Shown here piece after piece: positions 1-11,527 of a DNA stretch of 64,000 bases. The stretch's first letter is position 1. Each line of letters begins with the position of its first letter. The notes under the pieces are model-generated. The model was given only the letters and a program-made list of their open reading frames with translations, had not been told where the DNA came from and searched no databases. A program made the translations under genes and the position numbers. The stretch is from Streptomyces sp. NBS 14/10 (GTDB lineage Bacteria > Actinomycetota > Actinomycetes > Streptomycetales > Streptomycetaceae): contig NZ_NCSM01000070.1 in NCBI RefSeq assembly GCF_002224125.1, positions 1 to 64,000 on the forward strand, written 5' to 3'.

Positions 1-1727
1 CCCCCCTGCCCGGGGAAGACCAACACCGGCCCGGCACCCCCCGCCACCGGCTCGGCCGACACCACACCACCCGACGGCACACCCTCCGCCAACGCCCGCA
101 ACCCCGCCAGCAGTTCATCCCGGTCATCGCCGACGACCACGGCCCGGTGTTCGAGCATCGCCCGGCCGGCCACCAGCGACCACCCCACCTCCGCCACATC
201 GGCGGTGGTCTCCTCGGCGAACTCCGCCAGCCGTCCGGCCTGGGCACGCAGCCCCGCGGCCGACCGCCCGGAGACCACCCATGGCACCACGCCACCCGGG
301 ACCATCGGCGCGGTGGCTTCCCCCTCCGCCGACGGTGCGGGCGCCTCTTCGAGAATCACATGCGCGTTGGTGCCGGAGATGCCGAACGCCGAGACACCCG
401 CCCGCCGCGGACGCTCCGTCTCCTCCGGCCACGTGGTGGCCTCCGTCAGCAGCTCGACCGCCCCGCCGCCCCAGTCCACATGCGGCGTCGGCTCATCCAC
501 ATGCAACGTCTTGGGCAACACCCCGTGCCGCATCGCCATCACCATCTTGATGACACCGGCGACACCGGCGGCGGCCTGGGTGTGGCTGATGTTGGACTTG
601 ATCGACCCCAGCCGCAGCGGCCGTTCCTCGGGCCGCCCCTGGCCGTACGTCGCCAGCAGCGCCTGCGCCTCGATCGGGTCGCCCAGCGTGGTGCCCGTAC
701 CGTGCCCCTCGACCACATCCACGTCCGCGGGCGACAGTCGGGCGTTGGCCAGCGCCTGCCGGATCACCCGCTGCTGGGACGGACCGTTCGGCGCCGTCAA
801 CCCATTCGACGCACCGTCCTGGTTGATCGCCGACCCCCGCACCACCGCCCACACCTTGTGTCCGTTACGCCGCGCATCGGACAGCCGCTCCAGCAGCAGC
901 ATCCCCACGCCCTCGCCCCACCCCGTACCGTCCGCCGCCCCCGCGAACGCCTTGCACCGCCCGTCAAGCGCCAACCCCCGCTGCCGCGAGAACTCCACGA
1001 ACGCGCCCGCCGTGGCCATCACCGTCACCCCGCCCGCCAACGCCAGCGAGCACTCGCCCCCGCGCAGCGCCTGCACCGCCGAGTGCAGCGCGACCAGGGA
1101 CGATGAACACCCCGTGTCCACCGTCACCGCCGGGCCCTCGAGCCCCAGCACATACGACACCCGGCCCGAGAGCACACACGCGAGGTTCCCCGTGGCGGCA
1201 TAGCCCTCCACCTCGCTGCCGGCCATGGCGGTGAGCACCGTGTACTCCTGCGATGTCACCCCGGCGTAGACGCCGGTGCTGCTGCCCACGAGCCCCTGAG
1301 GGTCGATACCGGCGTGTTCGAAGGTCTCCCAGGCGACCTCGAGCAGCTGCCGCTGCTGAGGGTCCATCGCCAGCGCCTCCCGCGGTGAAATCCCGAAGAA
1401 TTCCGCGTCGAATTCCCCCGCGCGCCGCAGAAAGGCGCCCTCGCGCACATAACTCGTACGCGGGCTGTCGGGGTCGGAGTCGAACAGGTTCTCCAGATCC
1501 CAGCCGCGGTCGTCCGGAAACGCGCTCAGCCCTTCGCCGCCGGACGCCACCAGCTCCCACAAGTCCTCCGGGTTCTCCACCCCGCCCGGAAAACGGCACG
1601 CCATACCGACGATCGCGATCGGCTCGGGTTCCGTGGACTCCGCTTCACGCAGACGCTGCCGGGTGTCCCGCAGTTCTGCCGTCACCCACTTCAGGTGGTC
1701 GAGAAGCTTCGCCTCGTCCTTCGCCAT
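1..1727 (-). CDS. Type I modular polyketide synthase, N-terminal part (docking helix, ketosynthase, start of acyltransferase)
   Basis: The leftward frame stays open to the window edge, so the 3' part is missing (about 575 codons seen). It starts with an amphipathic stretch ([20 protein letters not shown]) typical of PKS N-terminal docking domains, so it probably accepts a chain from another PKS subunit. The ketosynthase fills roughly residues 34-455: entry motif [15 protein letters not shown], active-site Cys207 in [13 protein letters not shown], and histidines in EGHGTGT and KSNISH. The KS-AT linker follows, and the acyltransferase entry FPGQG lies at the last codons visible. The ATG at 1727 has GAGGAG nine bases upstream. 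The cytochrome P450 lies 72 bp upstream on the same strand, probably a tailoring partner. Module number and product cannot be told from this fragment. PKS identity is certain. Confidence 0.95.
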
Positions 1728-8552: not shown

Positions 8553-9614
8553 TCACCTTTCGCGCAGGTTGGCGTTACGGGCCAGGTCGAGCGCGTACTC
8601 CGTCCACCAACGGCCCGCGGGCGGGCCGCCGTTGCAGGTCCCGTCGGACTCGCCCGGGCGCTTGATCCACAGATACGCGTCGATGGACGGGTCGCCCGTG
8701 CGGGTGCTCGGGGGATCCCCCAGAGCCCGCCCCGGGGGGTTGCACCAGCTCTCCTGGCCGTCGGTGGCGGAGCGCACGGCGCCCATGTCACCGCTCTTGC
8801 CGTCGTCGCCCTCGCCCCTGACGGAGGTGAGCGGGCCGTTTCCGTTGCGGCTGGTGTCGATGATGAAGTGGACCCGGCCGAGCTGGAGGGACAGCCGACG
8901 GCCGTAGGCGCGGGTCACCGACGTCGGCTGGAAGTTCGAGACGTTCAGGGCGAAGCCGTCCGCCTGGTCGATGCCGCTTTTCATCAGCGGCTCCACCAGC
9001 CGCTCGGTGTCCTTGATCCACCCCGGGTTCCCGGCGTCCAGATAGATCCGGGTGGCGGGCATCGCGGAGAGCATGGCGACCGCGTCGCGCAGCAGGGCCA
9101 GCCGCGGCGCACGCAGCGGCTTGGGAATGCAGCCGTCGACCACCTGAGCAATCGCATCGGGCTCCAATACGACAATCGCCTTTCTCTCGCCGATTCCGGA
9201 GACGATCTCACGGATCCAGTCCAGATATTCGGCGTCGCTTTCCGCCCCGCCCCGGGAGTATCTTCCGCAGTCCCGGTACGGAATGTGATAGGCGACCAGC
9301 ACCGGCGTACGGTGCTCCCGCGCGGCGGATTCGGTGAGGAACCGGACCCGTTCGCGCGGATGCGGACCGAGCCATTCGGCGATCGGCTCGTCGGCGATCC
9401 GCCGCATGAGCTCCGCCTCCGCGTAACGGCCCGCGCGCCGCTGCTCACGGGCCTGCCGGGCGGCCGGGTTGTCCGGGTTCACCCAGAGCCCGCTCTGCCG
9501 GTCCGACCCGCCTGACGTGCCGAGACATCCGCTCAGCGCGAGGAGCGCGGCGGCACTTCCCGCAAGCGGTGCCCAGTGTCGCGCGATGGCTCTCCTGAGC
9601 CCTTTCTCGGCCAT
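8553..9614 (-). CDS. Glycoside hydrolase family 6 lipoprotein (endoglucanase-like)
   Basis: A 353-residue secreted enzyme. The N-terminus is a lipoprotein signal with lipobox LALSGC (lipid-bearing Cys30). GH6 signatures follow: VAYHIPYRDCGRYSRGG and VVLEPDAIAQ, then YLDAGNPGWI and NVSNFQPT, with ESWCNPPGRALG and AYLWIKRPGESDG near the end. The expected reaction is hydrolysis of beta-1,4-glucan outside the cell, anchored to the membrane. It is convergent with the cellulose-synthase-like gene, so it probably edits or releases that polymer, as BcsZ/CslZ proteins do. The ATG at 9614 has AAGGTG upstream; an in-frame ATG 20 codons earlier lacks a signal-peptide look. Confidence 0.92.
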   Translation of the reverse strand: MAEKGLRRAIARHWAPLAGSAAALLALSGCLGTSGGSDRQSGLWVNPDNPAARQAREQRRAGRYAEAELMRRIADEPIAEWLGPHPRERVRFLTESAAREHRTPVLVAYHIPYRDCGRYSRGGAESDAEYLDWIREIVSGIGERKAIVVLEPDAIAQVVDGCIPKPLRAPRLALLRDAVAMLSAMPATRIYLDAGNPGWIKDTERLVEPLMKSGIDQADGFALNVSNFQPTSVTRAYGRRLSLQLGRVHFIIDTSRNGNGPLTSVRGEGDDGKSGDMGAVRSATDGQESWCNPPGRALGDPPSTRTGDPSIDAYLWIKRPGESDGTCNGGPPAGRWWTEYALDLARNANLRER

Positions 9615-9761
9615 TCGAGCACACCTTTTCCCGGAGTTTCCCGGCCTTGGAATTGACGGCACGTGTCGCATCATGGCATCGGGAACGGGCGGCGGCTTTC
9701 AATTCACGCTTGTGTTGCCCCGCCGCCATCGGGGCGAATTTCGGAAAGGGCCGTGAGACTT

Positions 9762-9925
9762 ACGACCTGGGGTGCGGTGGGGATCGGGAGAAGGAGCGGC
9801 GTCCGGTGCGGTCGAGCGCAAGGCGCCGGAAGGTCCTCGTAGCGGAGCTACTTGGGCCTTTCGGCAACGCCGCGGGCGGCCGTGCCGGGCGTCGCGACGC
9901 CGATCCCCACCGCACCCCAGGTCGT
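9762..9925 (+). repeat. 164-nt near-complete hairpin with strand-specific wobble pairs
   Basis: The outer stem is 26 perfect base pairs (9762-9787 with 9900-9925). A second stem of 16 pairs (9796-9811 with 9880-9895) contains four G-U or U-G pairs when read as plus-strand RNA. A third stem of about 12 pairs plus three beyond a bulge (9822-9836 with 9854-9871) has two more wobbles. The tip is GTAGC-GGA-GCTAC. On the minus strand each wobble would be an A-C mismatch, so the fold favours a plus-strand transcript. The right end touches the stop codon of the cytochrome b gene. It may be a terminator, a dispersed palindromic repeat, or a structured RNA. The rest of the 310-bp gap (9615-9761) shows nothing clear. 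Confidence 0.8.
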
Positions 9926-10626
9926 CACCCGTCGCGGTCCTCACCGGCCCGCCACAGCGGGTGTTCGCGGTCCGCCCACCTCCGGTCGACCGTTCCGGTG
10001 CGCATACCGCGCCGGGCCTCCGGGTCGCCGAGTGCCATGCCGATGTGCCCGAGCAGCACGATGCCGACGGCCAGCGCCAGCCAGTCGTGGACGAAGGTGG
10101 CGCTGGTGCGCCAGACCAGCGGGGCCAGATCGGTGAACCACATCAGCAGCCCGGTGCCCGCCATCACCAGTACGGCGCCGCTGATATAGGCGGCGTACAG
10201 CTTCTGCCCGGCGTTGAACTTGCCCGCCGGGCGCGCCCCCTCGCGCGCGTCGCGCCGCAGCACCGCGCGCAGCCAGCGGCGGTCGTGCGGGCCGAAGCGG
10301 TTGAGGCGGGAGAGGTCGGCGCGGAAGGCGCGGGAGACCAGGCCCAGCAGCGTCGGGACCGGGGTCAGGATGCCGGTCCACTCGTGCACCGTGACCACCA
10401 GGGCGCGGCGGCCCACGAGTTCGGCGAGCTGCGGCAGATACAGACAGGCCGCGCTCACCACACAGGCGCCCAGGAGGACGGCGGTGGTGCGGTGGATCCA
10501 CCGCTCGGCCGGGGTGAACCGGGCCACGCGGGGCCGGGGCCCGGTGCGGGCGCGTGCGGCGGGGCGTACGGGGGCCGGGCGTACGGGGGCGGGGCCGCCG
10601 GGGTGCGCGTCAGGTGGTGGGGGCAT
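9925..10626 (-). CDS. Cytochrome b561-type membrane subunit
   Basis: A 233-residue integral membrane protein with four hydrophobic segments (TTAVLLGACVVSAACLYLP, the segment after LVVTVHEWTG, KLYAAYISGAVLVMAGTGLL, and HDWLALAVGIVLLGHIGMAL). Histidines in the helices (ERWIHRTT, VHEW, FVHDWLA, LLGHIGM) are placed as haem ligands in the formate-dehydrogenase-gamma/b561 family. It should move electrons between the quinone pool and a periplasm-facing partner. Its ATG overlaps the last 17 bp of the molybdopterin oxidoreductase gene, so the two are translationally coupled and almost certainly partners. The Pro/Arg-rich N-terminus (about 45 residues) is unusual but common in streptomycete versions. 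Confidence 0.85.
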   Translation of the reverse strand: MPPPPDAHPGGPAPVRPAPVRPAARARTGPRPRVARFTPAERWIHRTTAVLLGACVVSAACLYLPQLAELVGRRALVVTVHEWTGILTPVPTLLGLVSRAFRADLSRLNRFGPHDRRWLRAVLRRDAREGARPAGKFNAGQKLYAAYISGAVLVMAGTGLLMWFTDLAPLVWRTSATFVHDWLALAVGIVLLGHIGMALGDPEARRGMRTGTVDRRWADREHPLWRAGEDRDG

Positions 10627-11527
10627 CGTCGCGTCCGTTCGACTTGCCGACCCAGCCGTCCACGTCATAGCCGCGGTCCTCCCAATAGCCGGGCCGTACC
10701 TCGCGGGTGACCTCGATACCGGAGAGCCACTTCGCCGACTTGTAGAAGTACATGGGGGCGACGTACAGCCGCACCGGGCCGCCGTGGGAGTGGCCCAGCG
10801 GCTCGTCCCGCATTCGCAGGGCGACCAGGACATCGTCCCGGCGGGCCTGTTCGAGGGTCAGGCTCTCGCTGTACGCCCCGTCGAAGCAGGTGAAGCGGAC
10901 GGCCCCGGCCCCCGGGCGGACCCCGGCGGCGTCCAGCAGCGTGGCCAGGCGTACGCCCTCGAAGGGGGTCTGCGGTACGCGCCAGCCGGTGACGCACTGG
11001 ACGTCGTGGACGATGCGGTGCTGGGGCAGCGCGCGGAGGTCGGCGAGCCGGTAGTCGGCGGGTTTGTCGACAAGTCCGCCGACGGTGAGCCGGTAGTTCT
11101 CGGCGTTCTTGTGGGGGACGGAGGAGGTCACCGAGTAGTAGCGGAACCCGCCGCCGTTGGGCAGCAGCCCGGTCACCCCGGTGGGGTCGTTCTCCGCCGC
11201 CACGGCCAGGAACTTCTCCAGGCGGCGCTGCAGCCAGGGGGCGGCGGCCATACCGCCCGCGCCCAGGGCGAGCATGCCGAGGATGACGCGCCGGCCGACG
11301 GGGGTGCCGCGGTCGGCGGCGGTGTCCGCCGGGTCGGTCGTGTCCGGGTCGGCGGTGTCCGGGGCGGCGGCGTCCGGGGCCGTCGTGTCCGGGTCGGCGG
11401 TGTCCGGGGCCGTCGTGTCCGGGTCGGTGGTGTCCCGGTCGGCGGCGGGGCCTGGTTCTGGGGCACCCGGGTCGGTGGTGTCCGGGTCGGCGGCGGGGTG
11501 CTCCGCGGCGCCGGGATTGCGGTCCAT
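10610..11527 (-). CDS. Sulfite-oxidase/MsrP-type molybdopterin oxidoreductase with Asp-Thr-Pro repeat N-terminus
   Basis: A 305-residue protein. Residues about 15-70 are low-complexity repeats of the type PDTTAPDTADPDTT. A hydrophobic segment follows (RRVILGMLALGAGGMAAA), either a membrane anchor or a weak twin-arginine signal. The C-terminal domain has the molybdopterin oxidoreductase pattern: YRLTVGGLVDKP, then VHDVQCVTGW with Cys178 as expected Mo ligand, and GHSHGGPVRLYVAPMYFYKSAKWL. The likely site is the outer face of the membrane, with the overlapping cytochrome b gene as electron partner, as in MsrPQ/YedYZ-like systems. The substrate (sulfoxide or other) is not known. Repeat length may vary between strains. 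Confidence 0.85.
   Translation of the reverse strand: MDRNPGAAEHPAADPDTTDPGAPEPGPAADRDTTDPDTTAPDTADPDTTAPDAAAPDTADPDTTDPADTAADRGTPVGRRVILGMLALGAGGMAAAPWLQRRLEKFLAVAAENDPTGVTGLLPNGGGFRYYSVTSSVPHKNAENYRLTVGGLVDKPADYRLADLRALPQHRIVHDVQCVTGWRVPQTPFEGVRLATLLDAAGVRPGAGAVRFTCFDGAYSESLTLEQARRDDVLVALRMRDEPLGHSHGGPVRLYVAPMYFYKSAKWLSGIEVTREVRPGYWEDRGYDVDGWVGKSNGRDDAPTT

Follow-up and report, generated by a model that had tools for sequence, protein, structure and literature searches.

MITEs are normally defined by their ends, their middles being disposable, and ordinary IS-derived MITEs share their ends with one IS. REPINs and REP elements are much shorter units, without DDE-type ends, and go with a RAYT transposase. 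Here we describe an actinobacterial family with the opposite pattern: the middle is conserved, its base pairs compensated and polarised by strand, and the ends vary. As described in a review of bacterial MITEs (PMC2229807), the ERIC/IRU, Correia/NEMIS, and YPAL elements resemble this family in being 100–200 bp long, mostly with inverted ends and a target duplication; in contrast to them, the hosts here are GC-rich actinobacteria, the inner core is conserved, the ends vary by arm type, and pairing is compensated on one strand. The same review describes MITEs of other bacterial genera that form a long stem-loop in the transcript, and the word Streptomyces is absent from it. With REPINs and REP elements (PMC3116915) the family has in common that its members are mobile hairpins. 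With IS5-family insertion sequences, represented by the one in L402 described below, and with their deletion MITEs it shares the end TAGGGCGTGTCTGACAA, YTAR flanks, and a candidate DDE_Tnp_1 partner; unlike IS-derived MITEs, it combines one core with many end types. Searches of Rfam and of full-text literature, in which coverage of subscription papers is small, gave no earlier Streptomyces MITE or repeat of this kind among the matches listed. Within the reach of these searches, this MITE-like family, widespread in actinobacteria and combining a conserved, strand-polarised core with differing ends, is new.

The hairpin and its neighbouring genes

The window, the 64,000-nt stretch of Streptomyces sp. 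NBS 14/10 analysed here, contains the hairpin at exactly 9762–9925 (164 nt). It lies between a cytochrome b561-family gene and the next gene downstream, which encodes a glycosyl hydrolase of family 6 (GH6), both on the minus strand; the TGA stop codon of the former (9925–9927) overlaps the right edge of the element. The parts are as follows.

8553–9674, minus strand: GH6 gene (PF01341, E 2.3e-65)
9760–9762, no strand: left TNA-type flank, TTA, read from the sequence
9762–9787, plus strand: left terminal inverted repeat (outer arm), ACGACCTGGGGTGCGGTGGGGATCGG, 26/26 complementary to 9900–9925
9788–9795, plus strand: left-only, mostly unpaired stretch GAGAAGGA leading from arm to core, with one isolated pair in the folds
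9792–9899, plus strand: conserved core hairpin of 108 model positions (alignment A2, covariance model R1)
9807–9808, plus strand: UG that pairs with 9883–9884 as a tandem U-G/G-U wobble, invariant in alignments A1 and A2
9820–9821, plus strand: unpaired AA of the internal loop (A2 columns 29–30), of which the first A never changes and the second is kept in 90% of copies or more
9839–9851, plus strand: tip stem-loop GTAGC-GGA-GCTAC, from the fold
9866–9867, plus strand: unpaired AA from the 3' strand of the internal loop, invariant in A2 (columns 75–76, 29/29)
9900–9925, plus strand: right terminal inverted repeat (outer arm), 26/26 complementary to the left arm
9925–9927: right flank TCA, read from the sequence; TTA/TCA fits a TNA target, the two triplets being non-identical
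9925–10833, minus strand: cytochrome b561-family gene (open reading frame; PF01292, E 5.9e-16)

An earlier sequence-only reading had proposed that nearly the whole segment folds on itself, better as plus-strand RNA, and folding bears this out: over 9740–9950 the plus strand reaches –163.9 kcal/mol against –104.3 ± 4.8 for shuffled sequences (z –12.4), and the minus strand –130.4 kcal/mol (z –6.8), its middle stems split into short runs. That reading was right about the 26 perfect outer pairs and the tip; it was right that wobbles and a middle stem exist, while their sizes need correction, since 9762–9925 folded alone has 69 pairs (62 Watson–Crick and 7 G-U, where six had been counted) and the middle stem comprises 19 pairs plus one isolated pair in the minimum-energy fold instead of 16 pairs. 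Its statement that the segment contains no frame stands for recognised genes, as neither of two crossing frames scanned, 9699–9944 (–) and 9647–10189 (+), matches any Pfam family; it fails for mechanical open reading frames, which do span the segment (e.g. 9772–10710 on the plus strand and 9699–9944 on the minus strand). A coding role was rejected on the Pfam result for these two frames and on core length differences that are not multiples of three.

No Rfam 15 family reaches its gathering cut-off at 9762–9925, the best score being 16.3 bits for sbcD against a cut-off of 40. Elsewhere in the window, 597–671 (+) scores 84.8 bits for ASpks (cut-off 52), whose name suggests an RNA antisense to a polyketide gene of mycobacteria; we suspect that this match marks a conserved polyketide synthase coding motif.

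A strong hairpin directly after a stop codon could be a Rho-independent terminator or a bidirectional insulator of the cytochrome b gene. We regard this as very improbable: neither strand has a T-rich tail, zero terminator-like sites were found, and the cytochrome b transcript is the minus strand, the one that folds worse. In agreement with the sequence-only reading, which had argued against a simple terminator, there is nothing terminator-like beyond the stem. Moreover, 12 related cytochrome b loci, 9 of them from the genus, lack a convincing copy (best 17.7 bits, E 0.061), and convergent genes flank only 6 of the 61 family copies for which a gene could be called on each side.

A covarying core kept foldable on one strand

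The core at 9792–9899 is common to copies with different arms. Its covariance model R1 (108 positions, 42 pairs) was built from 29 of 34 fetched copies (alignment A2), leaving out L002, L003, L006, and L030 for their large inserts and L005 for a gap; the window core scores 110.7 bits on the plus strand and 44.3 bits on the minus strand. In A2, 97.5% of 1218 pair cells hold standard pairs, and 19 of the 42 core pairs show changes on both sides, so that the pairs covary, as the sequence-only reading had suggested might be found; in a shuffle control of the core, 0 of 500 shuffles reach any of five measures. The pattern that would have pointed to a plain terminator, an outer stem kept alone and without covariation, is the opposite of what is seen, for it is the inner core that is conserved and covaries and the outer stem that varies between arm types. 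Two features hardly change at all: the tandem U-G/G-U pair is invariant (33/33 in A1, 29/29 in A2), and in the central internal loop three of four A positions are invariant in A2, the remaining one being an A in 90% of copies or more.

The sequence-only reading had also held that compensations favour the plus strand, and this extends to the family. Core pair cells include 216 G-U against 5 A-C, with 25 other. By parsimony over 88 non-redundant cores (149 matches, reduced to 95 when opposite-strand duplicates were removed and to 88 at 97% identity), 90 Watson–Crick to G-U events are inferred against 28 Watson–Crick to A-C events (p 9e-9), on one tree and an alignment fitted to the covariance model, which leans towards structure; the same count gives 143 Watson–Crick to Watson–Crick double changes and 74 other pairing losses. 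Pairing in the core is therefore not strict, given the 28 changes to A-C and 74 to other non-pairs. A G-U pair on one strand corresponds to an A-C mismatch on its complement, so the G-U excess means that one strand of the core has been kept foldable. Strand-specific selection on the core fold is well supported, and the fold selected is very probably that of the plus strand.

Copy number and spread

The sequence-only reading had proposed a test for dispersed copies in the host genome, and 12 places there match the core covariance model. A DNA search of the same genome gave two more full-length relatives, each with a 39-nt insertion at the tip, plus partial matches. Across the genus, DNA search finds a match at E ≤ 1e-3 in 220 of 295 genomes; among the matches listed, most cover the inner ~100 nt (typically query 57–157), mostly at 76–91% identity. 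The covariance-model search of streptomycete genomes proposed in the sequence-only reading retrieves the core from 331 of 392 sampled genus genomes, yet the window copy falls below every Rfam threshold. In wider samples, the model matches 63 of 394 genomes and 15 of 137 genera in the class, and 11 of 296 genomes and 5 of 198 genera in the phylum. Blast places the element on 22 plasmid records; a search bearing on phage origin gave zero matches in 50,697 phage records.

In some family members, short GC-rich mini-hairpins have inserted secondarily into the tip or an arm: at the tip stem-loop in L002, L003, and L006, where the insertion is 39 nt, and also in L158, L161, and L178 of genome G539 and in L341, L343, L347, and L359 of genome G218. 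Some G218 copies have tandem arrays of a roughly 33-nt unit inside the left stem.

Arms

Matched arms flank the core in 102 of 108 entries (six places are entered twice) and are missing from the other 6. These terminal inverted repeats, mostly 17–30 bp, form 31 clusters at 75% identity among the 102 entries, and each arm type is near-perfectly self-complementary. The arm type of the window copy recurs in L002 and L003; at arm/core junctions, other copies have GGATCA or a small hairpin in the position of GAGAAGGA.

Core and ends are separable, since similar ~108-nt cores occur with arms that are alike only at chance level. Among 164 pairs of copies whose cores are at least 90% alike, 34 have arms that resemble each other no more than shuffled arms do (95% limit), and in the remaining 130 the arms are more alike than that limit; the cores of L016 and L020, for example, are 97% alike and their arms match at chance level. 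Inside each of the genomes G218, G539, and G173, near-identical cores carry their arms along, so the arms belong to the mobile unit as its ends and are no part of the target. Mismatches in the arms, counted once each, are again polarised (53 G-U against 6 A-C, with 34 other), and by position the G-U:A-C ratio is 20:6 in the outer 14 nt and 27:0 in the inner arm, which is thus, like the core, kept pairable on one strand. The weak polarity of the outermost 14 nt falls in the region where a transposase would bind double-stranded DNA.

Target sites and an empty site

Among 96 distinct copies, YTAR occurs within 6 nt of the arm end on the left in 57, on the right in 64, and on both sides in 47 (59–67% per end), compared with 21 of 5100 random stretches from the same loci (0.4%). 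Other copies have TNA flanks, which are identical in L026, L031, and L032 (TAA/TAA, TGA/TGA, and TCA/TCA) and in L002, of the same arm type as the window copy (TAA/TAA), and non-identical in L003, L029, L036, and L038. The window copy, flanked by TTA/TCA, has no exact duplication.

A filled and an empty site can be compared in related plasmids. The element in a Streptomyces atratus plasmid (L394) reads AAACGGAAGGCCCTAGGGCGTG...ACACGCCCTAGCGGACC, and the empty site with both flanks (L396) reads AAACGAAAGGCCCTAGCGGACC. The target duplication is 2–4 bp, TA at minimum and CTAG at maximum, the ambiguity being due to G/C ends. Three further loci (L397, L398, and L399) lack the element and have a single CTAG before the common right-hand flank, their left flanks being too diverged to read. 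Immediately to the left of the filled CTAG site, L394 has another insertion with inverted repeats, unlike the first, and this one is missing from plasmid L396. For the window copy, none of 9 genus loci examined gave a syntenic empty site.

The family thus has the marks of a MITE: it is short and without a protein of its own, and it has terminal inverted repeats, a target duplication (L394/L396), and dispersed copies. Its mobile nature is well supported, and the window segment itself is almost certainly a mobile element. The sequence-only reading had suggested a plus-strand structured RNA or a repeat derived from one; for the stand-alone RNA gene, what is found instead is a mobile family with terminal inverted repeats and target duplications. 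A non-mobile structured regulatory RNA gene of the chromosome, spread by descent, would account for a covarying, conserved core of nearly constant length (103–111, or 141–147 with an insert, in 102 entries). It is contradicted for the family by multiple copies, a patchy presence across the class, YTAR at the ends, the empty site in a related plasmid, and an arm identical to an IS end, and we give it hardly any credence.

Candidate transposase partners

A Rhodococcus plasmid (L402) contains an apparently complete IS5-family element of ~935 bp with a DDE_Tnp_1 domain. Its left end, TAGGGCGTGTCTGACAA, is identical over 17 bases to TAGGGCGTGTCTGACAAT in G539 copies of the hairpin; the other end of this IS has two differences among those 17 positions. 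This 17-base match at one end concerns the GGGCGTGTCTGACAA arm type, and the IS resides in another genus. Since one arm type equals one end of an IS5-family element, a DDE transposase acting in trans probably moves the element. An IS630-family gene (DDE_3, L400) has a stretch overlapping its 3' end that is similar to the arm type CTAGTGCCGC...GGCAACGTT; as L400 yielded no second end, this link is tentative, hinting that a second transposase family, of IS630 type, may serve one arm type.

For the arm type of the window copy, searching the host genome turned up copies of the hairpin, single ends standing alone, and weak matches, few of the last being examined, and no autonomous partner; among plasmids, no match was full-length. 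The 30 matches listed for G539 (13 loci examined) include no two arm-type ends in inverted orientation at a distance of 600–1600 bp. Of 16 PF13340 matches considered as host-genome partners, solely L065 and L070 have strong end repeats, both unlike the hairpin arms, and these candidates were rejected. A match beside an annotated IS701 transposase (L188) was traced to the end of an IS5-type reading frame next to it. In a search from the IS5 C-terminus, the ends of L316 (G218) were convincing and those of L319 in the host genome plausible, most others being chance pairs. The IS5-type frame of L319 (G000:C85:4380-4787) is bounded at CTAG/TTAG by ends that match at 14/20 positions and are similar to the host-genome arm type GGGTCTGTCGTCAAAGG; L319 may be regarded as a candidate resident helper on sequence grounds.

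Orientation to genes and to replication

With genes called by a simple GC-frame gene caller, 42 of 67 copies have co-directional neighbours (23 antisense-type and 19 sense-type), 13 lie between divergent and 6 between convergent genes, and for 6 the neighbours could not all be called. The near equality of sense and antisense among the 42 co-directional copies argues against a terminator and against a role in host-gene read-through; an RNA acting in read-through transcripts would be expected to lie sense to its neighbours.

Copies also lean with respect to replication: of 104, those with the plus strand on the presumed leading-strand template outnumber the others 66:38 (p 0.008), a post hoc count, as the trend had been seen by eye before this first test. 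In a follow-up fixed in advance and confined to new genomes the count is 9 of 12 (9:3, p 0.15 two-sided), not significant alone; further copies in genomes used before give 13 of 15. All these counts take copies hand-picked among the matches listed in few-contig assemblies, leaving out fragmented assemblies and other genera, and assume a mid-chromosome origin, with many lengths rounded and with insertions that related genomes may share.

Such a lean would suit a DNA-level explanation as well as or better than one based on RNA. The element could be mobile with a single strand of DNA as the object of selection, the plus-strand fold, or avoidance of the minus-strand fold, acting in replication or transposition: a G-T/A-C hairpin would form on one template strand and escape hairpin nucleases or slippage on the other. 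In its favour are the replication-strand counts, the lack of a sense-strand bias to genes, and a polarity that reaches into the arms; against it, the lean depends on the assumed origin, rounded lengths, best matches listed, and possibly shared insertions, and DDE transposition of the IS5 type is not known to have a single-stranded intermediate. We consider this reading rather unlikely. The gene-orientation and replication-strand counts are nevertheless why both RNA and single-stranded DNA are kept as candidates for the molecule whose fold is selected; the invariant wobble pair and the unpaired adenines tip a slight preference towards RNA.

Proposed mode of life

Our preferred reading, which we hold to be probable, is that the segment is a non-autonomous, MITE-like mobile element whose plus strand is selected to fold. 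The window copy would have landed at the cytochrome b stop codon because TNA triplets are, we infer, its target, moved by a DDE transposase supplied in trans. The plus-strand fold under selection would most likely be that of an RNA made by transcription of the element, and its U-G pairs and unpaired AA motifs might be read by a protein, or might shield the transcript. Between RNA and single-stranded DNA as the selected molecule, we judge RNA only a little the likelier. New arms may be gained by hairpin-primed template switching beside an IS end, which would create matched arms in one step.

More speculatively, the family may be a portable selfish module: a core folding on one strand, as RNA or single-stranded DNA, would be the heritable unit, with ends repeatedly changed by hairpin template switching, parasitising IS5 subgroups and perhaps IS630 across Actinomycetes, its orientation filtered by the replication fork. 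If the pattern of a kept middle with differing ends holds, it becomes testable what keeps a non-coding mobile element alive, a function of its RNA or of its single-stranded DNA, and also how such elements get new transposases.

Copies can sit on the stop codon of a gene, as in the window, and may affect transcript ends and annotation. Lone ends of the window arm type occur after TGA or TAA triplets at L008 (G000:C52:99521-99548) and L045 (G000:C62:299128-299146) and may be remnants of lost elements; that at L045 lies directly at the stop codon of a long frame, which we take to encode 6-phosphogluconate dehydrogenase.
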